From contig NZ_LAQT01000028.1 of assembly GCF_001294205.1 (NCBI RefSeq), forward strand, positions 1 to 64,000: a stretch of DNA of 64,000 bases, read 5' to 3'. The position numbers and the translations under genes are program-made. Each line of letters opens with the position of its first letter. The stretch's first letter is position 1. The notes beneath the pieces were generated by a model that saw only the letters and a program-made list of their open reading frames with translations, searched no databases and had not been told where the DNA came from. This document shows positions 10,980 to 46,691 of the stretch, piece after piece. The DNA is from Amantichitinum ursilacus (lineage in GTDB: Bacteria > Pseudomonadota > Gammaproteobacteria > Burkholderiales > Chitinibacteraceae).

Positions 10980-13685
10980 TCAGGCCAGCGCCGGAGTGGC
11001 GCACATGCGTTTGATTTCGGGGACGCAGGAGCCGCAGACGGTGCCGCAGCCGAGGTCGTTTTTGAGCCGGGCCAGATCGGCACCTTGCGCGCTCAGCTGG
11101 CGGATGGCGGATTCTTTGACTTGCTTGCAATTGCACACCACGCGGTCGGCGACCGCGCCTGCCTGACTGTTGAATACTTTGATGCGCGGGCCTTGCCATG
11201 CTTGTGCTTGCACCAGTTGCTGCACCAGTCCGTCCGCCCCGGTGACATCGCCGGCCCAGATCAGGCCGGCCAGGGTGCCGTCGTGCCACGCGGCGCGTTT
11301 GAGCAAGCCGCGGCGTGCGTCACGGTATTCGAGGACGTCAGCGCCCGGATGTAGATCGAGTGCATCAAACAAGCGCTCCAGCCAGCCGGCGGGCGGTTGG
11401 GTGGCGGCGGCTGTGAGCTGGATGACGTCATCGCCCGCCATGCTGATGGCGGCATAGGCGCATTCCGCCAATAGCGGTTGCAGCGCGGCGTGCAGCGCCA
11501 GCACGTTGCCGCGGCGGGCGGCGGTGACACGCCAGGGCAGGTTGGCGGCTTCGATGCGCACGGCGGCGTGTTTTAGTTCGGGTTGAGCCGATTGGGGGTC
11601 GACTGAGCCCAGCGTGGTTTCGTTGATGCCGCCGCAGTGTAGAAACTGTGCGTTCCAGTGCATCGCCGCAAACACCGTGCCGGTGGTGACCTCGTCACTA
11701 AACGCCAGCGGCAAGATCAGCTGGCCGCGTTTGCTGCTGATTTTGACCAGTTGCCCGGCCTGCAGCCCACGGCGTTCGGCATCCATCGGATGCATGCTTA
11801 GCGTGGCTTGCGGCGTATGTGCCCATAACGCCGGCACGCGCCCGGTGCGGCTCATGCCGTGCCATTGGTCGCGCAGGCGGCCTGTCAACAAATGGAAGGG
11901 ATAGCGCGAATTGGTCGGCTCGGCCACCGGCCGGTAGGGCGTGGCATGAAAGCGCGCGCGGCCATCGGCGGTGGCAAATACGCCGTCGCTGTAGCGCCGC
12001 GCCTGACCGCCGCTTGCGCCACTGGGCCAAGGCCATTGTTGCGGGCCAAGTTGCTCCAGCAGCGGATAATCCAGCCCACTGATGTCCAGATCGCGGTCTG
12101 TTGTCAGGCTGCGGTGTTCATTGAATATGGTTTCCGCATCGGCAAAACCGAACAGACCTTGCGGGCGTGACGGCAGCAAATTTTGCAGGCGTTGCGCCAC
12201 GGCGTCAGCGATCTGCCAATCTGCCCGCGCTTCGCCCGGCGCGGCGATGGCGGGGCGCACGCGCGAGATGCGGCGTTCGGAATTGGTGACCGTGCCGGAT
12301 TTTTCGCCCCAGCTGGTGGCGGGTAGCAACACGTCGGCAAACGGCACGGTGTCGGTATTGCCGTAGGCCTCTTGCACCACCACAAACTCGGCTTGTTGCA
12401 AGGCGGCGCGCACTTTATCGATATCGGGCATGGAATGGACTGGATTGGTACAGACCACCCAGATGGCCTTGATCTGTCCAGCCCGCACCGCTTCGAACAA
12501 CGCCACGGCGGGAAGGCCGGGGTTGGGCGAGAGCTGCGCTGGGGCGATGCCCCACAGCGCGGCGACTTCGGCGCGATGCTCTGCATTGGTGATATCACGA
12601 TGCGCCGCCAGCATATTGGCCATGCCACCGACCTCACGGCCGCCCATGGCGTTCGGTTGGCCGGTCAGTGAAAACGGCCCCGCGCCCGGTTTGCCGATCT
12701 GGCCCGTGGCCAGATGCAGATTGATCAGCGCCAGGTTTTTATCGGTGCCGTGCGCCGATTGGTTCAGCCCCATGCAATACAGGGACAGCGCGGCACTGCT
12801 GCGGCCCATCCATTCGGCGGCCGTAATCAGGTCGGCTTCGAGTACTCCGCAAATTTCGGCGGCCATGCGCGGGGTGTAGTCGCGCACCAGTCGTTTGAGT
12901 TCGGCAAACCCGGCGGTATGCGCATCGATATAGGCCGGGTCGATCAGTCCTTCCCAGATCAGGTGATGCAGCATGCCATTGAACAAGGCCACATCCGTGC
13001 CGGGCTGGATTTGCAGATGCAGATCGGCTTGGGCAGCGGTATCGGTGCGACGCGGGTCGACCACGATCCATTTGATCTGGGCGTCGGCAGCTTTGGCCGC
13101 CTCCAGCCGCCGATACAGCACCGGGTGCGCCCAGGCCATGTTCGATCCGGCAAACAGCACGCAATCGGCCAGTTCCAGATCGTCATAGCAAGTGGGCGGG
13201 CCGTCCGCGCCCAGTGCCAGCTTGTATGCCGCCACCGCGCTCGACATGCACAGGCGCGAATTGGTATCGATGTTGTTGGTGCCGATCAGGCCTTTGGCCA
13301 GCTTGTTAAAAACGTAGTAATCCTCGGTCAGCAACTGGCCGGACACATACAAGGCCACCGCATCCGGCCCATGGCGCTGGATGATGTCGGCAAAGCGCTG
13401 CGCCACCGTATCGAGTGCAGTATCCCAATCCACCCGTTGCCGCGGCATGTGCCGGTTGAGCCGCAGTTCCGGGTAGAGCGCGCGGCCGGTCTGTTGTTGC
13501 GCGGTGAGCGGTAAGGTCAGGCCTTTGGTACACAAGCGACCACGGTTGGCGGGGTGGTCCGGGTCGCCCTGTATGCCGGTGATGCGCGTGCCATCACTGT
13601 CGATCAGCACGCCGCAGCCAACGCCGCAATAACAGCAGGTCGAACGCGTCTGCGTGATCGGGGGTGGGGTTAGGGGCTGGTTCAT
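10980..13685 (-). CDS. nasA: Assimilatory nitrate reductase, molybdopterin catalytic subunit
   Basis: A 901-residue cytoplasmic enzyme reducing nitrate to nitrite. The N-terminal [4Fe-4S] site is visible as Cys17, Cys20, Cys24 (in CCYCGVGC) and Cys52 (GRLCTKG), followed by the molybdopterin oxidoreductase and dinucleotide-binding domains. The C-terminal ~55 residues (VVCNCKQVKESAIRQ ... CGTVCGSC) form a BFD-like [2Fe-2S] domain, as in Klebsiella-type NasA. The open frame extends upstream to 13889, but the ATG at 13685 is preferred: it has GGGAG just upstream and places the cluster motif at the normal distance. It lies 23 bases after nirD in the same transcript. Confidence 0.93.
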   Translation of the reverse strand: MNQPLTPPPITQTRSTCCYCGVGCGVLIDSDGTRITGIQGDPDHPANRGRLCTKGLTLPLTAQQQTGRALYPELRLNRHMPRQRVDWDTALDTVAQRFADIIQRHGPDAVALYVSGQLLTEDYYVFNKLAKGLIGTNNIDTNSRLCMSSAVAAYKLALGADGPPTCYDDLELADCVLFAGSNMAWAHPVLYRRLEAAKAADAQIKWIVVDPRRTDTAAQADLHLQIQPGTDVALFNGMLHHLIWEGLIDPAYIDAHTAGFAELKRLVRDYTPRMAAEICGVLEADLITAAEWMGRSSAALSLYCMGLNQSAHGTDKNLALINLHLATGQIGKPGAGPFSLTGQPNAMGGREVGGMANMLAAHRDITNAEHRAEVAALWGIAPAQLSPNPGLPAVALFEAVRAGQIKAIWVVCTNPVHSMPDIDKVRAALQQAEFVVVQEAYGNTDTVPFADVLLPATSWGEKSGTVTNSERRISRVRPAIAAPGEARADWQIADAVAQRLQNLLPSRPQGLFGFADAETIFNEHRSLTTDRDLDISGLDYPLLEQLGPQQWPWPSGASGGQARRYSDGVFATADGRARFHATPYRPVAEPTNSRYPFHLLTGRLRDQWHGMSRTGRVPALWAHTPQATLSMHPMDAERRGLQAGQLVKISSKRGQLILPLAFSDEVTTGTVFAAMHWNAQFLHCGGINETTLGSVDPQSAQPELKHAAVRIEAANLPWRVTAARRGNVLALHAALQPLLAECAYAAISMAGDDVIQLTAAATQPPAGWLERLFDALDLHPGADVLEYRDARRGLLKRAAWHDGTLAGLIWAGDVTGADGLVQQLVQAQAWQGPRIKVFNSQAGAVADRVVCNCKQVKESAIRQLSAQGADLARLKNDLGCGTVCGSCVPEIKRMCATPALA

Positions 13686-13708
13686 CGCATGCGCTCCCGC
13701 GTGGTCAG

Positions 13709-14035
13709 TCAATGCAAAGCCACAAACACAAGGCCGGCTTCTACCTTGGCCGCAAACCGGCGCGCACAGCCGACGTCGGTTGCGCGCGCCTCGCCGCTGG
13801 CAAGGTCGATATTCCAGCTGTGTAAGGGGCAGGTCACCGCCGCGCCATGGACGATGCCCTGGCTCAGCGGCCCGCCCTTGTGCGGGCAACGGTCGAGCAG
13901 GGCAAACACGCTGTCGTCAGCGGTGCGGAATATCGCCACATTGCCGCTCTCGCGTTGCAACACGCGGCTACCCAGCGGCGGAATGTCGTCCAGCGCGCAG
14001 ATCTGTACCCAGTTGGGCGTGGTGATTGCATTCAT
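13709..14035 (-). CDS. nirD: Nitrite reductase small subunit (Rieske-type)
   Basis: A 108-residue partner of NirB in NADH-dependent reduction of nitrite to ammonium. It shows a Rieske-like fold with a complete pattern CPHKGGPL ... CPLHSWNID, that is C-x-H and C-x2-H, so a [2Fe-2S] cluster is possible; many NirD proteins have lost these ligands. The ATG overlaps the nirB stop codon (ATGA), showing translational coupling. A longer frame exists upstream but lies inside nirB. Confidence 0.92.
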   Translation of the reverse strand: MNAITTPNWVQICALDDIPPLGSRVLQRESGNVAIFRTADDSVFALLDRCPHKGGPLSQGIVHGAAVTCPLHSWNIDLASGEARATDVGCARRFAAKVEAGLVFVALH

Positions 14036-16464
14036 GCCAGCACCTTCAGAGGAATGAATTCGTGTTTTTGTTTGCCCGCGATGCGTTCCGCCCATGGATC
14101 GCGCAAGCCTTCCAGTGAGAACAACAAGCGTTCGTGCAGGGCTTTGCGGTTGGCGGAGTCATCGACCACCCGCGCTTTGATGTAATCCAGGCCCACGCGC
14201 GCGATGTAATGCACGGTGCGGTCGAGGTAATAGGCTTCCTCGCGATACAACTGCAAAAATGCGCCGCTGTATTCCTTGACCTCTTCCGCCGTTTTGACCT
14301 TGCACAGAAACTGCGCCACCTCGGTCTTGATGCCGCCGTTGCCGCCCACATACAGCTCCCAGCCGCTATCCACCGCGATAATCCCGACGTCCTTGATGCC
14401 GGATTCCGCGCAGTTGCGCGGGCAGCCCGACACCGCCAGCTTTACTTTGTGTGGGCTCCACATATTGGCGAGCATGGTTTCCAGGTCTATGCCCATCTGC
14501 GTGCTGTTTTGTGTGCCAAAACGGCAGAACTCACTACCGACGCAGGTTTTGACGGTGCGTATGGATTTGCCATAGGCATGACCGGACTGCATGCCGAGGT
14601 CGGCCCAGACGTTGACCAGGTCTTCTTTTTTAACGCCGAGTAAATCGATACGCTGGCCGCCGGTGACCTTGACCATAGGGATGGCATATTTGTCGGCCAC
14701 ATCGGCAATCCGGCGTAGTTCCGAGGCATTGGTGACGCCGCCTTTCATTTGCGGAATCACCGAAAAGGTGCCGTCTTTCTGAATATTGGCGTGTGCGCGT
14801 TCGTTGATAAAACGGCTTTGCGGATCATCAATGGCTTCTTTGGGCCAGGTCGACAGCAGGTAATAGTTGATCGCGGGGCGGCAGGTGGCGCAGCCATTGG
14901 GGGTGCGCCACTCCATAAACTGGTAGACCGCCTGATGCGTCAGCAAGTGGTGCTCGCGGATCACTCTGCGCACGTCGCCATGGTTGTGGTCGGTGCAACC
15001 GCACACCGCTTTGGTCTTGGGCGTTTCCTGGAAGCTGGAGCCGAGCGTATTCATCAAGATCTGCTCCACCAGGCCGGTACACGAACCGCAAGAGCTGGCG
15101 GCCTTGGTGTGTTTCTTGACGTCATCAACCGTGAACAAGCCTTTGTCCTTGATCGCCTTGACGATATTGCCTTTGCATACCCCATTGCAGCCGCAGACTT
15201 CGTCGCTGTCCTGCATGGCCATGGCGCGGTTCTGGCCTTGGGTGCCCGCGTCGCCGATGGATGACTCGCCAAACATCAGATGGTCACGCAAGTCGTTGAT
15301 CTTGCGGCCTTCCTTCAGCAATTTGAAATACCATGCGCCGTCGGTGGTGTCGCCATACAGACAGGCGCCGACCAGTTGGTCGTCCTTGATCACCAGCTTT
15401 TTGTAAACCCCGCCGGCCGGATCCGACAACACGATGTCTTCGCTGTCGGCGCAGCCCATAAAATCACCGGCGCTGAACAGATCGATGCCGGTGACCTTGA
15501 GCTTGGTGGATAACACCGAGCCTTTGTATTGGCCGATGCCGAGATGGGCCAGATGGTTGGCGCAGACTTTGGCCATCTCGAACAAAGGCGCCACCAGGCC
15601 ATACGCGGTGCCGCGATGGTTTACGCATTCGCCCACGGCATAAATGCGCGGGTCGAAGGTTTGCAAGGCGTCGCTGACCACAATGCCGCGATTGCAATAC
15701 AGGCCCGCGCTCTCGGCCAACGCTTGGTTGGGGCGGATGCCCACCGCCATAACCACCAGATCAGCCGGGATTTCGGTCCCGTTCTTGAAGCGCACGGCCA
15801 CCGCTTCACCCGCAGCATTGCCGGCGATCTCGGCGGTCTGGTGCGCCAGCAAAAACTGCAGGCCGCGTTGTTCCAGCGAGGCTTGCAACAGCTTGCCGGC
15901 GGGGATGTCGAGTTGCTTGTCCAGCAGCCAGTCGCCCAGATGCACCACCGTCACGCTCATGCCACGCAGCTTGAGGCCGTTGGCGGCTTCCAGCCCCAAC
16001 AATCCTCCGCCGATGACCACCGCGTGTTGTTTAAGCTGGGCCGTGGCTATCATGGTTTCGGTGTCGAAGATGTCGCGGTAGCTGATGACGCCACGCAAAT
16101 CCTTGCCCGGCACCGGCAGGATAAACGGGCTGGAACCGGTGGCCAGCAACAGGCGGTCATAAGCCGCCTCCGTGCCATCGGCGGCACGCACGACGCGGTT
16201 ACGGCGATCAATCTGCGTTACCGTTTTGCCCAGATGCAGCGTAATGCCGTGGTCGGCGTACCAGCTCAAGGGGTTCAGGATAATGTCGTCAAACGCTTGC
16301 TCACCAGCCAGCACCGGCGACAGCAGAATCCGGTTGTAGTTGGGGTGGGGCTCGGCGCCGAAGACGGTGATGTCGTACTGGTCAGGCGCGAGTTGCAACA
16401 ATTCTTCCAGCGTGCGGATCCCGGCCATGCCGTTACCGATCACGACTAATTTGGGTTTGCTCAT
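14032..16464 (-). CDS. nirB: Nitrite reductase [NAD(P)H] large subunit
   Basis: An 810-residue sirohaem enzyme reducing nitrite to ammonium in the cytoplasm. The N-terminal pyridine nucleotide-disulphide oxidoreductase domain begins LVVIGNGMAGIRTLEEL (FAD), with a second dinucleotide fold at VVIGGGLLGLEAANGL. Two BFD-like [2Fe-2S] stretches follow (CGCNGVCKG ... CGSC and CGCTDHNHGD ... CATC). The sulphite/nitrite-reductase part carries CVGSEFCRFG (Cys ~641/647) and SGCPRNCAESG (Cys ~681/685), which bind sirohaem and [4Fe-4S]. Length and order match Escherichia coli NirB. It follows the transporter by 27 bases and overlaps nirD by 4. Confidence 0.96.
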   Translation of the reverse strand: MSKPKLVVIGNGMAGIRTLEELLQLAPDQYDITVFGAEPHPNYNRILLSPVLAGEQAFDDIILNPLSWYADHGITLHLGKTVTQIDRRNRVVRAADGTEAAYDRLLLATGSSPFILPVPGKDLRGVISYRDIFDTETMIATAQLKQHAVVIGGGLLGLEAANGLKLRGMSVTVVHLGDWLLDKQLDIPAGKLLQASLEQRGLQFLLAHQTAEIAGNAAGEAVAVRFKNGTEIPADLVVMAVGIRPNQALAESAGLYCNRGIVVSDALQTFDPRIYAVGECVNHRGTAYGLVAPLFEMAKVCANHLAHLGIGQYKGSVLSTKLKVTGIDLFSAGDFMGCADSEDIVLSDPAGGVYKKLVIKDDQLVGACLYGDTTDGAWYFKLLKEGRKINDLRDHLMFGESSIGDAGTQGQNRAMAMQDSDEVCGCNGVCKGNIVKAIKDKGLFTVDDVKKHTKAASSCGSCTGLVEQILMNTLGSSFQETPKTKAVCGCTDHNHGDVRRVIREHHLLTHQAVYQFMEWRTPNGCATCRPAINYYLLSTWPKEAIDDPQSRFINERAHANIQKDGTFSVIPQMKGGVTNASELRRIADVADKYAIPMVKVTGGQRIDLLGVKKEDLVNVWADLGMQSGHAYGKSIRTVKTCVGSEFCRFGTQNSTQMGIDLETMLANMWSPHKVKLAVSGCPRNCAESGIKDVGIIAVDSGWELYVGGNGGIKTEVAQFLCKVKTAEEVKEYSGAFLQLYREEAYYLDRTVHYIARVGLDYIKARVVDDSANRKALHERLLFSLEGLRDPWAERIAGKQKHEFIPLKVLA

Positions 16465-16491: not shown

Positions 16492-17694
16492 TCAAACGCG
16501 GGCACTGGCCATGGTCCAGCCACTGCGCCAGCGTGCCTTGACGTTGCTCAGGCTGAGCCAGCCTAGTGCGGTCAGGCAGGCAAACAGCCACAGGCCCGTG
16601 GCATAACTGCCGGTGCCTTGTTTGATGGCGCCCAGGCTGGCGGTCAGGGCAAAGCCGCCGACGCCACCGGCCATGCCGATCAGACCCGTCATTACGCCGA
16701 TCTCCGCGCCAAAGCGTTGCGGCACCAACTGGAATACCGCGCCATTGCCGGCGCCCAGGCACAGCATCGCGCCGATAAACAGCGCCACCACGCCATACTG
16801 TCCGCCCATGTTGAAACCGGCAGCCGCGATCAACAGCGTGACCGCGGCATAGACAGTCAGCAGTGAGCGCGTGCCGCCAACGCGATCCGCCACCAACCCG
16901 CCTACCGGGCGCATGGCCGAACCGGCAAACACGCAGGCGGCGGTGCAATATCCGGCCAGTTTGGGATCAAAGCCGAACTGATCATGAAAAAAGCCGGGCA
17001 GCGCGCTGGCAAAGCCGGAGAAGCCGCCAAAGGTGAGCGAGTAAAAGAACATGAACCACCACGCATCCTTGTGGCCCAGCATGGCCGCGTAGTCTTTGAA
17101 GGCTTTGGGTTTGCTGTGCGTCGGTGCTTCTTTGGCAAAGCCCCAGAAATAGCCCAGCACCAGCAGCAAGGGGATGCAGGCAAAGCCAAACACGCTCTGC
17201 CAGCCAAACGCCGCGGCCAAAACCGGGGCAAACAGCGCCGCCAGCACCGTGCCGGAGTTACCCGCGCCGGCAATGCCCATGGCCGTGCCCTGATGCTGGC
17301 TGGGATACCAGCGCGACGCCAGCGGCAAGGCCACGGCAAACGACGCCCCGGCTACGCCGAGAAACAAGCCCAGCAACAGCGCCGCGCCCATGCTGTTAAT
17401 GCCCAGTTGCCACGCCGCCAGCAAAGCGCCGATGACGATCAGCTGGCCCAGCAATCCGGTGCGCCGGGCGCCGATGCGATCACTCAATACGCCCATCACC
17501 ACGCGCAGAATCGCGCCCGCCAGGATGGGGGTGGCGACCATCAGGCCACGTTGTTGTGTGTTCAGGTGCAGGCTGCTGGCAATCTGCACCTGCAGCGGTC
17601 CAAGCAGATACCAGACCATAAAACTGAGATCGAAATACAAAAATGCCGCCAGCAAGGTGGGGGTGTGGCCGGAACGCCAGAAACTACGGTCCAT
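16492..17694 (-). CDS. Nitrate/nitrite transporter, MFS NarK/NasA family
   Basis: A 400-residue major facilitator of about 12 membrane helices, first gene of the nitrate operon. The N-terminus (FLYFDLSFMVWYLLGPLQVQI) is the nitrate/nitrite porter signature, and GIAGAGNSGTV corresponds to the nitrate signature in helix 5. The second signature region is GAGNGAVFQLVPQRFG. It probably imports nitrate in symport or exchange. The ATG is preceded by CGGAG. It lies immediately downstream of the sigma-54/ANTAR/terminator leader, so its expression should require both low fixed nitrogen and nitrate or nitrite. Confidence 0.93.
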   Translation of the reverse strand: MDRSFWRSGHTPTLLAAFLYFDLSFMVWYLLGPLQVQIASSLHLNTQQRGLMVATPILAGAILRVVMGVLSDRIGARRTGLLGQLIVIGALLAAWQLGINSMGAALLLGLFLGVAGASFAVALPLASRWYPSQHQGTAMGIAGAGNSGTVLAALFAPVLAAAFGWQSVFGFACIPLLLVLGYFWGFAKEAPTHSKPKAFKDYAAMLGHKDAWWFMFFYSLTFGGFSGFASALPGFFHDQFGFDPKLAGYCTAACVFAGSAMRPVGGLVADRVGGTRSLLTVYAAVTLLIAAAGFNMGGQYGVVALFIGAMLCLGAGNGAVFQLVPQRFGAEIGVMTGLIGMAGGVGGFALTASLGAIKQGTGSYATGLWLFACLTALGWLSLSNVKARWRSGWTMASARV

Positions 17695-17738
17695 AGTGAG
17701 TACTCCGTGGCAGTGAGTGCGATGTTTCTCGGGGGCGT

Positions 17739-17792
17739 AAAAACAAAAACGGCGTCCGTTCCGTCACCGCGAGGTGAGGAAGGGACGCCGTT
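17739..17792 (-). terminator. Intrinsic terminator in the nas leader (antitermination target)
   Basis: On the minus strand a 10-bp stem (AACGGCGTCC at 17792-17783 pairing with GGACGCCGTT at 17757-17748), with further pairing inside, is followed by TTTTTGTTTTT. It lies between the promoter and the transporter start, with ~45 bases to the ATG. This position makes it an attenuator rather than an end-of-operon terminator. Confidence 0.85.
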
Positions 17793-17809
17793 GTCCGGTA
17801 AATCGGGTG

Positions 17810-17857
17810 TTGCGCTAGTGCAAGGGTCTTGCCGATCTGGCACGCCGTTGCGCCAGA
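17810..17857 (-). promoter_or_regulatory. ANTAR-type hairpin RNA leader (NasT target)
   Basis: On the minus strand an 8-bp stem (TCTGGCGC/GTGCCAGA with one G-U pair, 17857-17836) closes the hexaloop AACGGC. The loop has A at position 1 and G at position 4, the residues required by ANTAR proteins. The hairpin begins at about +4 of the transcript predicted from the sigma-54 promoter. A second weaker hairpin (TTGC/GCAA, loop ACTAGC, 17823-17810) could be the second arm of the two-hairpin motif, but it lacks the G4. The adjacent nasT gene encodes the expected binding protein. Confidence 0.75.
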
Positions 17858-17870
17858 CTTGTTTGTCTGG

Positions 17871-17886
17871 AGCAAATGCTGTGCCA
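17871..17886 (-). promoter_or_regulatory. Sigma-54 (-24/-12) promoter of the nitrate operon
   Basis: The minus strand reads TGGCAC-AGCAT-TTGCT, a full match to the consensus TGGCAC-N5-TTGC(A/T) with GG at -25/-24 and GC at -13/-12. The predicted start is near base 17860, just before the ANTAR hairpin. NtrC activation is inferred from the promoter class; I could not identify a convincing NtrC enhancer pair by eye. Confidence 0.8.
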
Positions 17887-17918
17887 GCCCGCCTTGTTGA
17901 GGCTTTATGCGGGCTGGC
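17883..17918. repeat. 10-bp inverted repeat overlapping the -24 element
   Basis: GCCAGCCCGC and GCGGGCTGGC flank a 16-base spacer. One arm covers the GG of the -24 box. On the minus strand it has no following T-run, so it is not a normal terminator for nasS. An outer pair, GCTGTGCC/GGCACAGC, extends the possible stem. It may be an operator, a transcript-end stem of nasTS, or incidental. Confidence 0.5.
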
Positions 17919-18019
17919 GGGCAGGGGCGCGGCACAGCGTGCACAACCATGGCCCGTTATGCCGCTGCATTAACCTTTTTGGGGCGCGACAGCAGACCGT
18001 GGGCCCGGCCCCGGTGCCA

Positions 18020-19108
18020 TCAAGGCCAGTGCGTGCCGTCCATTAATACGCTTTGGCGCACGTCGCCGTCCGGGCAGGCGATGCCGAGTTCAGCGGCGGC
18101 CTGGCGATACAAGGCAGTCTGGTTGATGCCTGCGGCTATGGTCATCGGCTCGATGTCGCGTTTGATATAGCCCCAGCGCTGGTATTGGCTGACAAACCAT
18201 GCGCCATCGGATAACCACGGATAGGTGACCGTGCCGTTGCCAAAGAAGCGCACCGGCTCCGGTGTATCCGTGCGCGGCGGAAACTGGCCGAGCAGACGCG
18301 GCAAGATCAGTGCTTCCGGCTGGTTCAGATATTGCGGCTGGGCCAGCATACGTGCGGCTTCGGCCCGATGCATGCTGTCGGCATCAAGCCAGCGGCAAGC
18401 CTGCAGCACGCAGCGGATCAGTGCACGCGCACTGTTGGGGTAAAGCGCGGCAAAGTCGCGGCGGCAGGCAAGGATTTTTTCTGGATGCTCGGGCCAGATT
18501 TCGCTGCTGACGATCCAGGTGACGCCAGCGCCGGCTTGTGCTGCCACAGCGTGCCATGGCTCGCCGGCGCAGAACCCGTCAAGGCGCCCGCTGGCCAGTG
18601 TGGCGCTCATTTCGGACGGTGCGATCACCACCGACTGCACATCGTTCAAGGGATGCACGCCCTGCGCCGCCAGCCAGTAATACAGCCACATCGCATGGGT
18701 GCCAGTCGGAAAGGTCTGCGCAAACACCAACTCGCGCGGGCTGGTGGCGACAATCTGGCGCAGGCTCTGGCCACTGCGCAATTGCTGGGCGAGCGCCGGC
18801 GACAGGGTGATGGCCTGGCCATTCTGGTTCAGCGTCATCAATGCCGCCATATCCGCTTGCGGCCCACCTATCCCCAGTTGCACACCGTAGGCCAGGCCGT
18901 ATAGCGCATGCGCGGCATCGAGTTCGCCACTGAGCAGTTTATCGCGCAACGCCGCCCAGGACGGCTGACGCAGCAATTGCAGTTCCAGCCCGGCGCTGGC
19001 GGCAAAACGTTGGGCCACGAGCAGCGGCGCGCAGTCGGTCAGCGCGACAAAGCCCAGCCGTAGCGTGGCTTTTTCCGGGGCGCCAGATGCGGGCAGGGAG
19101 GCGTGCAT
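18020..19108 (-). CDS. nasS: NasS-type nitrate/nitrite sensor (NrtA-like, no signal peptide)
   Basis: A 362-residue protein of the NrtA/CmpA nitrate-binding family. It begins LRLGFVALTDCAPLLVA and contains FCAGEPWHAVAAQ and FPTGTHAMWLYYWL, all typical. It lacks a signal peptide or lipobox, so it should be cytoplasmic. This and the nasT gene just upstream (12-base gap) identify it as NasS. In the known mechanism NasS holds NasT inactive until nitrate or nitrite binds. There are no NrtB/NrtC-type transporter genes nearby, which argues against a transport role. Confidence 0.9.
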   Translation of the reverse strand: MHASLPASGAPEKATLRLGFVALTDCAPLLVAQRFAASAGLELQLLRQPSWAALRDKLLSGELDAAHALYGLAYGVQLGIGGPQADMAALMTLNQNGQAITLSPALAQQLRSGQSLRQIVATSPRELVFAQTFPTGTHAMWLYYWLAAQGVHPLNDVQSVVIAPSEMSATLASGRLDGFCAGEPWHAVAAQAGAGVTWIVSSEIWPEHPEKILACRRDFAALYPNSARALIRCVLQACRWLDADSMHRAEAARMLAQPQYLNQPEALILPRLLGQFPPRTDTPEPVRFFGNGTVTYPWLSDGAWFVSQYQRWGYIKRDIEPMTIAAGINQTALYRQAAAELGIACPDGDVRQSVLMDGTHWP

Positions 19109-19120
19109 TGCTGGATTTCC

Positions 19121-19696
19121 TTAGCCGAGCAGATCGGACATATTAATCAGTTGGCGCGCCACATCGGCCAGCTTCTGGCCTTGCTTCATGGCTTGCGTGC
19201 GCAAGAGTTCATAGGCAGCGGCTTCAGTCAGGCCGCGCTTGTCCATCAGCACGCCTTTGGCGCGATCGATCAATTTACGATCTGACAGCTGTTGTTCCAC
19301 CTTGGCCAGGCGTTGTCGCAGCCGGTCGTCCTCGGCAAAACGCACCAGCGCAACCTCGATAATGGGGGAGAGTTTCTCTGCGGCCAGACCGTCAACGACA
19401 TAGGTGGTGACGCCTGCACCGACGGCGGCACGGATCAGTTGCTGGTTGGCGTCGGGGGTAAACATCACCACGGGTCGGGGTGCGGTTGCGTTCATCACGG
19501 CCAGTTGTTCCAGCGTGTCGCGCGACGGGCTTTCGGTATCGATGATCACCACATCAGGGCGCTGCTGCTCTACGGCCCATAACAGCGCAGTGGAACTGAC
19601 CGCATCGGGCAGTACGTCATAATCTTGCTGTAACAGCGTGGCGCGCAATTCGCCGATGGCTTTGGCAGTGTCGGTGACCAGCAACACGCGCAGCAT
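19121..19696 (-). CDS. nasT: NasT-type ANTAR-domain RNA-binding antiterminator
   Basis: A 191-residue protein with an N-terminal pseudo-receiver domain (LRVLLVTDTAKAI ... VVIIDTESPSRDTL) and a C-terminal ANTAR domain from ~130 (LIDRAKGVLMDKRGLTEAAA, then LADVARQLINMSDLLG). ANTAR proteins bind paired hexaloop hairpins and prevent terminator formation. The matching leader lies ~1.3 kb downstream on the same strand, before the transporter gene. nasT and nasS appear to form their own small operon upstream of the leader. Confidence 0.93.
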   Translation of the reverse strand: MLRVLLVTDTAKAIGELRATLLQQDYDVLPDAVSSTALLWAVEQQRPDVVIIDTESPSRDTLEQLAVMNATAPRPVVMFTPDANQQLIRAAVGAGVTTYVVDGLAAEKLSPIIEVALVRFAEDDRLRQRLAKVEQQLSDRKLIDRAKGVLMDKRGLTEAAAYELLRTQAMKQGQKLADVARQLINMSDLLG

Positions 19697-19796
19697 GGCA
19701 GTCAGGCCCGGTTAAAAATGAATTGGGTTAAAACAGGCACGGCAAGGTGCTCCAGACGGTGGCGTGCGAGGAATATACCTTTGTTATATGCAAGTT

Positions 19797-20528
19797 TCAT
19801 GCCGCAGGCGGGTTCGCAGTGGTGCGGCTGGCGCGAAACAGGGCACGCATTTCTGCGGCGTAGATGATTTCTTCAAGGTCTTCTTCGCTGATATCGACCA
19901 GCTCGCCGCGCGCAGACAACACTGCGCGTAAATCATCCCGCGTGACGCCGCCGCCCGCAGGCAGGGGTGGGCTGACTTGATGGTTGACGTTGGCGCGGTC
20001 GCTGATGCGATGCGGATAGCGCCGTTGCAGCGCGTTGTTGAACAGTAAGGCGTAGGCGAGCAATAACAGCGAATCGAGCAGCACTGGCCACAGCACAAAG
20101 CCGAATCCGAGCCGGTACACGGCGGGCCCGCCGAGCACGGCCGTCAAGGCGACTGCGCCGCTGGGTGGGTGGATGCAGCGCGCTTCAAACATCAAGGCGA
20201 TCGCGATGGCGGCCGCCACCGCCGCGGCGAAGCCGGTGTGGCCGAGCAGCAAGCCAGCCGCCACGCCCACGCAGGCGGCGATCAAATTACCGCCGACGAT
20301 GGACCACGGTTGCGCAAGTGGGCTGGCGGGCACGGCAAACAGCAGGACCGCCGAAGCGCCCATCGGGGCGATAAACCATGGATTGAGTTCGCCCAAGGCA
20401 TGGCGCGCCACCACTTCGGTCGCCCATAGACCCAGCGCTGCGCCGACACAGCCCAGAATCCGTTCGCGTCGGCTGGCGGTGGTGGGCGCGGGCCTAAAGC
20501 CATGCAGCCAGTGGAGAAATGCATGCAT
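19797..20528 (-). CDS. HPP-family membrane protein, possible nitrite transporter
   Basis: A 243-residue protein with about four membrane segments and the family signature in CIHPPSGAVALTAVLGG. The N-terminal (P)WxxPMGASAVLLFAVP block is typical. The C-terminus (TRDDLRAVLSARGELVDISEEDLEEII) is the linker that in many bacterial homologues leads to CBS domains; here the protein ends before any CBS pair. HPP proteins of cyanobacteria and chloroplasts have been shown to move nitrite. Placement 100 bases upstream of nasT makes a nitrite role plausible but unproven. The ATG at 20528 is chosen because the longer frame upstream is non-membrane and low in conservation features. Confidence 0.8.
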   Translation of the reverse strand: MHAFLHWLHGFRPAPTTASRRERILGCVGAALGLWATEVVARHALGELNPWFIAPMGASAVLLFAVPASPLAQPWSIVGGNLIAACVGVAAGLLLGHTGFAAAVAAAIAIALMFEARCIHPPSGAVALTAVLGGPAVYRLGFGFVLWPVLLDSLLLLAYALLFNNALQRRYPHRISDRANVNHQVSPPLPAGGGVTRDDLRAVLSARGELVDISEEDLEEIIYAAEMRALFRASRTTANPPAA

Positions 20529-42142: not shown

Positions 42143-42189
42143 CTAGATGGAAGTACGAGAGGTGCGGCTGAAGTCGCATCGTCTTTCAG

Positions 42190-42303
42190 GAAAGCTAGGG
42201 TTCCGGTTTCATTTGTAATTTTCATTACATGAAACGTCTGGTCCGAGAGCGTTCCGGCCGCCATCCATTTGGCAGCTCCACGGCGGGACAAAAGCCCGGG
42301 AGG
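42190..42303 (+). ncRNA. Guanidine-I (ykkC) riboswitch
   Basis: The three conserved blocks are present in order: CTAGGGTTCCG (42195-42205), CTGGTCCGAGAG (42238-42249), and ACGGCGGGACAAAAGCCCGG with GGAGG (42280-42303). A variable hairpin (GTTTCA/TGAAAC) joins the first two and a GC-rich hairpin the second and third. These match the ykkC class-I aptamer, which binds free guanidinium and turns genes on. It lies ~80 bases before the ABC transporter gene of a carboxylase operon known to carry this riboswitch in other bacteria. Confidence 0.95.
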
Positions 42304-42383
42304 TCGCGACAGTCAGTCATTGCAAGTGCAATGAAAGGTCTGCCCGCCTCTCGTGCCCGGATTCCCATCTCAGGAGCAATGCC

Positions 42384-46607: not shown

Positions 46608-46643
46608 CCGGCGCGCTGTATCCCCCTCAAGCATTCCAGCCCA

Positions 46644-46691
46644 TGCGGGACGGCCCGCTGGGTGTTGCAATCGTGCGGGACGACCCGCTGG
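46644..46691 (+). repeat. Two direct hairpin repeats before the carboxylase gene
   Basis: TGCGGGACGGCCCGCTGG (46644-46661) and TGCGGGACGACCCGCTGG (46674-46691) differ by one base and are 30 bases apart start to start. Each can fold as GCGGG/CCCGC with a four-base loop. The second ends only nine bases before the carboxylase ATG, where no normal Shine-Dalgarno sequence is seen. Confidence 0.65.

Follow-up and report, generated by a model that had tools for sequence, protein, structure and literature searches.

The 166-nt untranslated region ahead of the assimilatory nitrate/nitrite operon is very probably a two-step control leader, in which transcription starts at a sigma-54 promoter and is then passed into the operon by NasT antitermination. 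It occupies the minus strand between the predicted start (17860) and the ATG that opens a transporter gene (17694), in a window of 64,000 nt (the whole stretch of DNA that was analysed), and is a well-supported example of the known Ntr-plus-nitrate nasF/NasT leader type. The features of the region are, in the direction of transcription:

19121..19696, minus strand: nasT, receiver-like plus ANTAR RNA-binding antiterminator (PF03861, 73 bits; EutV 6wsh, NasR 4akk, AmiR 1qo0)
18020..19108, minus strand: nasS, nitrate/nitrite sensor related to NrtA (PF13379, 276 bits; NrtA 2g29, E 1.8e-56)
18409..18425, minus strand: weak candidate NtrC site TGCACTGATCCGCTGCG inside nasS (3 mismatches, 539 nt upstream)
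17883..17918, no strand assigned: 10-bp inverted repeat GCCAGCCCGC-N16-GCGGGCTGGC, overlapping the -24 box
17871..17886, minus strand: sigma-54 (-24/-12) promoter TGGCACAGCATTTGCT (exact consensus; position kept in relatives)
17860, minus strand: predicted +1 of transcription, 12 nt beyond the C of the -12 element (17872)
17836..17857, minus strand: P1, ANTAR hexaloop hairpin TCTGGCGC-AACGGC-GTGCCAGA (folding, covariation)
17783..17796, minus strand: P2, ANTAR hexaloop hairpin GGAC-AACGGC-GTCC, predicted antiterminator (conserved, covarying)
17739..17792, minus strand: intrinsic terminator (folding, -31.6 kcal/mol; covariation)
16492..17694, minus strand: NarK-family MFS nitrate/nitrite transporter, first gene after the leader (TIGR00886, 267 bits, below the cut-off of 311.7)
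14032..16464, minus strand: nirB, nitrite reductase large subunit (TIGR02374, 933 bits)
13709..14095, minus strand: nirD, nitrite reductase small subunit (TIGR02378, 94.5 bits)
10980..13889, minus strand: assimilatory nitrate reductase-like molybdoprotein (formate dehydrogenase and NasA/NasC nitrate reductase models)

Architecture of the leader and its regulators

The leader folds better than 200 of 200 dinucleotide shuffles (z = -4.57). P1 begins at +4 and has a stem of 8 bp closed off by a G-U pair at its end, with A1 and G4 in the AACGGC loop; the initial annotation had described an 8-bp hairpin with an A1/G4 hexaloop from about +4. P2, which that annotation overlooked, is a second A1/G4 hexaloop on a stem of 4 bp, and its motif (GGACAAMGGCGTCC) occurs once in the genome. 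The leader thus has two hairpins of at least 3 bp with A1 and G4, the two-hairpin hexaloop arrangement by which an ANTAR attenuator is defined (PMC3369931, excerpts). The strong terminator that had been proposed ahead of the transporter ATG was also borne out. Its arms (5' AACGGCGTCC, 17792-17783; 3' GGACGCCGTT, 17757-17748) form a 10-bp outer stem, followed by a T-rich tract that reaches 17739, and GGAG at 17706-17703 precedes the ATG.

The loop and 3' arm of P2 (17792-17783) double as the 5' arm of the terminator, so that P2 and the full terminator are mutually exclusive. When P2 was forced in constrained folding, the energy of the segment went from -32.4 to -17.8 kcal/mol, and what remained of the terminator was a shorter hairpin that no longer adjoined the U tract. 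P2 alone has an energy of -4.0 kcal/mol, a weakness that is expected if a protein must hold the hairpin. The sequence strongly supports reading the leader as a NasS-NasT attenuator, and this reading is more complete than the one proposed earlier, since P2 provides a mutually exclusive antiterminator, which P1 alone does not.

Two other hairpins were considered and set aside. The AAACAA hairpin at 17870-17853 has the wrong base at loop position 4 for a P1 and lies mostly upstream of +1, and the TTGC-ACTAGC-GCAA hairpin between P1 and P2 has A, not G, at position 4 and does not qualify as a middle hexaloop. The leader had no Rfam match at the gathering score. The two matches in the window are a guanidine-I and a guanidine-II riboswitch (42184-42304 and 46642-46688, plus strand, about 4.3 kb apart).

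As previously proposed, nasT and nasS lie directly upstream on the same strand, the end of nasS being 133 nt from the -24 box. They adjoin as a receiver-ANTAR protein and an NrtA-like sensor, and NasT is the sole ANTAR match in the genome. Of the 11 residues of EutV that contact the RNA loop (PMC8934654, excerpts), seven are identical in NasT (R142, K143, K149, E160, Y164, R168 and M172), K147 and R177 are conservatively replaced, and N173 and R175 differ. In the receiver domain, NasT has D in place of the lysine of the YLVKP motif of EutV. This lysine matters for receiver phosphorylation, and phosphorylation is therefore unlikely as the signal to NasT, which would fit sequestration by NasS.

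Upstream of nasT, on the same (minus) strand, is a gene for an HPP-family membrane protein (PF04982, 19797-20684); this family includes nitrite transporters. At the other end of the operon, the 25 best model matches listed for the molybdoprotein all fall below cut-off, and its ORF opens at a TTG as listed, so that the true start may be later.

Conservation and covariation in relatives

Of 61 related genomes, 30 gave a NasS-like match. Leaders were collected by an automatic search for P2, a terminator and an upstream hexaloop with a loop starting AA and carrying G4 (loci L001-L029 and L048-L127), the named NasS loci being the best 80 of a larger number. With these best 80 included, 61 of 109 NasS-derived loci yielded 63 distinct leaders, pattern-derived loci brought the total to 84, and a looser finder shows candidates in some of the remaining 48 loci. 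Leaders with the elements in this same order are present in both Beta- and Gammaproteobacteria and show compensatory changes.

In 54 of the 63 leaders (best 80 loci included), a sigma-54 score of at least 13 out of 14 was reached within 120 nt before the first hexaloop, compared to 19 of 9000 shuffled stretches. Within the same sample, again with the best 80 loci, A1 of the loop fell at +7 to +18 in 46 of the 54, with a mode of +12, which is also its position in the window, and at +21 to +50 in the other eight; after clustering at 75% identity, the score was reached in 38 of 45 and the A1 spacing kept in 31 of 38. P1 is thus at a nearly constant distance from the predicted sigma-54 start across relatives. 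We found no description of this constant distance, or of leaders with three hexaloops, among the open-licence papers listed by the literature searches.

An independent pattern, a sigma-54 site with AAYGGCG 15-30 nt later, was found at 63 places in 57 of 300 genomes of the order, compared to 13 for the reversed control. P1, P2 and the terminator were all present at 28 of these places. Where the P1 stem had 4 bp or more, P2 and the terminator were found at 28 of 36 places, compared to 2 of 27 where it did not (Fisher p = 1.9e-8). P1 starts between -1 and +12 in the 28 full leaders, where the pattern itself restricts the loop to +5 to +20.

Covariation was assessed in 26 aligned leaders (alignment A2). 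The paired percentages, 93.7% of cells for P1 plus the terminator and 95.3% for P1 plus P2, are inflated, partly by construction, because the rows were chosen for having these hairpins, and it is the changes on both sides of a pair that constitute the evidence for covariation. There were 69 such changes for P1 plus the terminator (shuffled mean 19.7) and 60 for P1 plus P2 (shuffled mean 16.1), numbers reached by none of 500 shuffles in either case. Pairing of P1 and the terminator dropped to 37-53% when the helices were slid by one to three columns. In 71 distinct blocks, changes in the 3' arm of P2 were usually matched by both the 5' arm of P2 and the 3' arm of the terminator; exceptions occur where G stands second in the 3' arm of P2, with three of five cases left unpaired in the terminator, and at the outermost terminator pair, which is formed in 57 of the 71 blocks. 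The loops are closed by C:G in 69 blocks for P1 and 70 for P2. NasR-selected loops are likewise closed by C:G (PMC7496416, excerpts).

A covariance model (R1) built from the 26 leaders and used with a threshold of E ≤ 0.01 matched 24 of the 61 related genomes, of which 32 encode an ANTAR domain. The matches fell in 24 of the 32 genomes with an ANTAR protein and in none of the 29 without (p = 1.8e-10), where 4 of the 26 seeds come from the tested genomes by locus origin and one genome (G046) matches only at E 0.002. Eight ANTAR-encoding genomes had no R1 match. Against the list of NasS matches, R1 was found in 22 of 30 positive and 2 of 31 negative genomes. These two (G025 and G031, with no NasS match at E ≤ 0.001) have dual-hexaloop leaders (L232, L236, L253 and L254) about 0.3 and 0.75 kb from the ANTAR domain, and their ANTAR protein may answer to another sensor. 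The genome under study has one strong R1 match, the nas leader (61.8 bits, itself one of the 26 seeds), and eight weaker ones; two weak matches (28.4 and 26.5 bits, in the E range of G046) resemble plain terminators. Other NasT targets in the genome were sought among the eight, none of which has two hexaloops; one is the opposite strand of the leader.

The sigma-54 promoter and its probable activator

The consensus -24/-12 promoter of the initial annotation stands as a zero-mismatch site at 17886-17871, with GG and GC elements 10 nt apart in TGGCAC-N5-TTGC, in a genome that encodes RpoN (439.9 bits). It is the sole zero-mismatch match to TGGCACN5TTGCW in the window, where matches with one mismatch are at chance level (seven, with 4.9 expected). 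In the 4.93-Mb draft genome the exact pattern occurs 16 times, this site included, and the reversed pattern not at all; it is the only one of the 16 to have, near +1, a hairpin of 5 bp or more with an A1/G4 hexaloop. The +1 at 17860, counted from the -12 C by the usual sigma-54 geometry, coincides with the start proposed before and agrees with the position of P1 in relatives. Initiation by sigma-54 is well supported by this conservation.

The activator would most likely be NtrC, which the genome encodes (697.5 bits). Among the 74 leaders that combine a good sigma-54 site with 220 nt of upstream sequence, NtrC-type sites with two mismatches or fewer were present in 22 (1.0% of shuffles) and with three or fewer in 50 (11% of shuffles), while the best site had four mismatches or worse in 24. 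The window leader has no clear NtrC site within 220 nt of the promoter; the best has four mismatches, and we therefore do not claim membership of the NtrC regulon. The site inside nasS (18425-18409) scores 15.0, close to the lowest accepted relative (15.2), with 95% of shuffled maxima below 11.3, and could be either a distant enhancer or a chance match in coding sequence. NtrC sites can be recognised at the glnA sigma-54 promoter of this genome, one with two and two with three mismatches. A genome-wide search for the NtrC palindrome was uninformative (18 places, 17 in the reversed control).

In a Burkholderia cenocepacia H111 ntrC mutant under nitrogen limitation, an NtrC/RpoN-dependent nas operon with the same gene set (transporter, nirB, nirD, nitrate reductase and nasT) drops in expression by log2 -6.5 to -8.1 (PMC5491218, excerpts, in which the leader RNA is not discussed), and loss of ntrC lowers nas gene expression in Pseudomonas stutzeri as well (PMC8443478, excerpts). 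By this kinship, NtrC control of the nas leader is likely, with no clear local site. The AND gate of the initial annotation accordingly divides into two halves. The NasS-NasT half is upheld by the overlap of P2 and terminator, the covariation and the co-occurrence with ANTAR genes; the NtrC half is a reading from relatives.

The main competing explanation, which we consider unlikely but worth weighing, keeps the NasT attenuator and assigns the promoter to a sigma-54 activator other than NtrC, so that the first input would not be shortage of fixed nitrogen. It would account for the lack of any NtrC-type site with three mismatches or fewer within 400 nt upstream, and further proteins in the genome match the central domain of the NtrC model, below cut-off (L193-L198). 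Against this stand the enrichment of NtrC sites in the relatives' leaders and the NtrC dependence of the same genes in B. cenocepacia and P. stutzeri, and weak sites or the distal nasS site could suffice. The unique inverted repeat over the -24 box also counts in favour of another regulator. The genome contains the 9-bp core pattern of this repeat a single time, and the repeat is absent from ten relatives inspected, which led us to reject it as a known operator or repeat family; when the 150-nt stretch was shuffled 5000 times, 26 of the shuffles contained a repeat as long. Two leaders (L006 and L008) carry another 10-bp inverted repeat, distinct from this one and lying more upstream. The repeat at 17883-17918 is possibly a repressor site or a 3' hairpin of the nasTS mRNA.

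It is less probable still that the operon is transcribed mainly by read-through from a nasT-nasS promoter, sigma-54 being minor and NasT still controlling the terminator. The short distance from nasS to the -24 box on the same strand and one sigma-70-like site upstream of nasT (19800-19772) are compatible with such read-through, but the sigma-54 site matches the consensus perfectly and relatives keep its spacing from P1. Moreover, P1 is predicted not to form in the read-through RNA, with a pair probability of 0.00 compared to 0.83 from +1, a difference that is not conserved.

A complementarity in the window would account for this predicted loss of P1. At 17875-17848, the -12 region TTGCTCCAGAC and the bases before +1 are complementary to the 5' arm and first loop bases of P1. 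Promoter and P1 might then be a single unit, in which only RNA started by sigma-54 carries a usable P1, with loop A1 at about +12. If so, read-through RNA from nasTS would pair TTGCTCCAGAC with the P1 5' arm and loop and escape NasT; the AND gate would be enforced by RNA structure, beyond two serial steps, and NasT would serve nitrogen-checked transcripts alone. We regard this as doubtful. P1 forms from +1 with a pair probability above 0.5 in the full leader in 27 of 28 full-architecture leaders (L150 is borderline at 0.53 and L175 fails). In read-through RNA this probability is no higher than 0.5 in four of the 27 (L140, which is the window copy, L143, L164 and L137, the last only in the full-length fold), on which ground an anti-P1 hairpin was rejected as a general device. 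For the window, shuffled upstream sequence disrupted P1 as badly in 5 of 100 cases.

Finally, an ordinary nasTS terminator with chance hairpins and no NasT control is exceedingly improbable: terminator-like sites at 17600-20100 are no more numerous than in shuffles (3, with 2.8 expected) and the window has three other P2-plus-terminator look-alikes with one mismatch each, but relatives keep the order, spacing, loops and pairing of the elements, with covariation, the leader co-occurs with ANTAR genes, and P1 and P2 predict each other.

Proposed mechanism and related systems

In the two-step reading that we prefer, an enhancer-binding protein would drive sigma-54 RNA polymerase to initiate at 17860; the most likely candidate is NtrC, phosphorylated when nitrogen is short. 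As long as nitrate and nitrite are absent, NasS would hold NasT, the leader would fold into the terminator, and transcription would stop near 17742. With nitrate or nitrite, NasT would be released, bind the A1/G4 hexaloops of P1 and P2 and stabilise P2. P2 would then consume the 5' arm of the terminator, which would be shortened and separated from the U tract, and the polymerase would pass this point and transcribe the genes for the transporter, the nitrite reductase (nirBD) and the nitrate reductase. Release of NasT by nitrate, RNA binding and antitermination are inferred from studied relatives. The weakest step, NtrC rather than another activator at the sigma-54 promoter, is plausible. The scheme extends a known two-input logic, nitrogen shortage plus the presence of nitrate, to a case read from sequence only, in a betaproteobacterium that is probably one of the Chitinibacteraceae, with exact positions that can be mutated.

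The eut, ami and nasF leaders have the same dual-hexaloop ANTAR antiterminator as P1 and P2, and the model in which P2 competes with the terminator was described for them (PMC3369936; PMC3369931 and PMC8934654, excerpts). In Klebsiella oxytoca, nasF is likewise under the Ntr system and nitrate/nitrite antitermination (PMC5424462, excerpts), with a P1 and a terminator-overlapping P2 that carry A1/G4 hexaloops (PMC3369936; PMC7496416, excerpts), but NasR is a single NIT-ANTAR protein, whereas here NasS and NasT are two. The same NasS-NasT pair and proposed antitermination are reported for Azotobacter vinelandii nasAB (in the excerpts of citing papers), Paracoccus denitrificans nasA, where NasT binds the leader and nitrate or nitrite splits NasS-NasT (PMC3795266, excerpts), and Bradyrhizobium, where NasT acts on the nosR leader (PMC6759348, excerpts). 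For Paracoccus, the excerpted text places an NtrC site upstream of nasT and calls the nasA site unidentified. In the eut leaders of Enterococcus faecalis, too, there are two hexaloops, and P2 lies within the terminator (PMC3369931 and PMC8934654, excerpts, which mention no sigma-54 promoter for eut leaders). EutV, whose RNA-contacting residues are mostly conserved in NasT, is activated by phosphorylation and dimerises, whereas NasT is released from a ligand-binding partner. A 2025 survey predicts 66 sigma-54 promoters at ANTAR-protein genes, NasT included (PMC12316311, excerpts).

The window leader has no third hexaloop, but a third A1/G4 hexaloop between P1 and P2 was seen in eleven others (L003, L004, L007, L015, L018, L105, L118, L136, L137, L159 and L176). 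Four more leaders (L048, L058, L062 and L103), in which the first hexaloop is away from a good sigma-54 site, also have an extra one. Together, among the 48 leaders whose linker measures 16 nt or more, 15 had an extra hexaloop, compared to 0.08 expected from shuffled linkers. This subclass bears on the question in the ANTAR field of whether the dimer holds two hexaloops together or visits them in turn (PMC8934654, excerpts).
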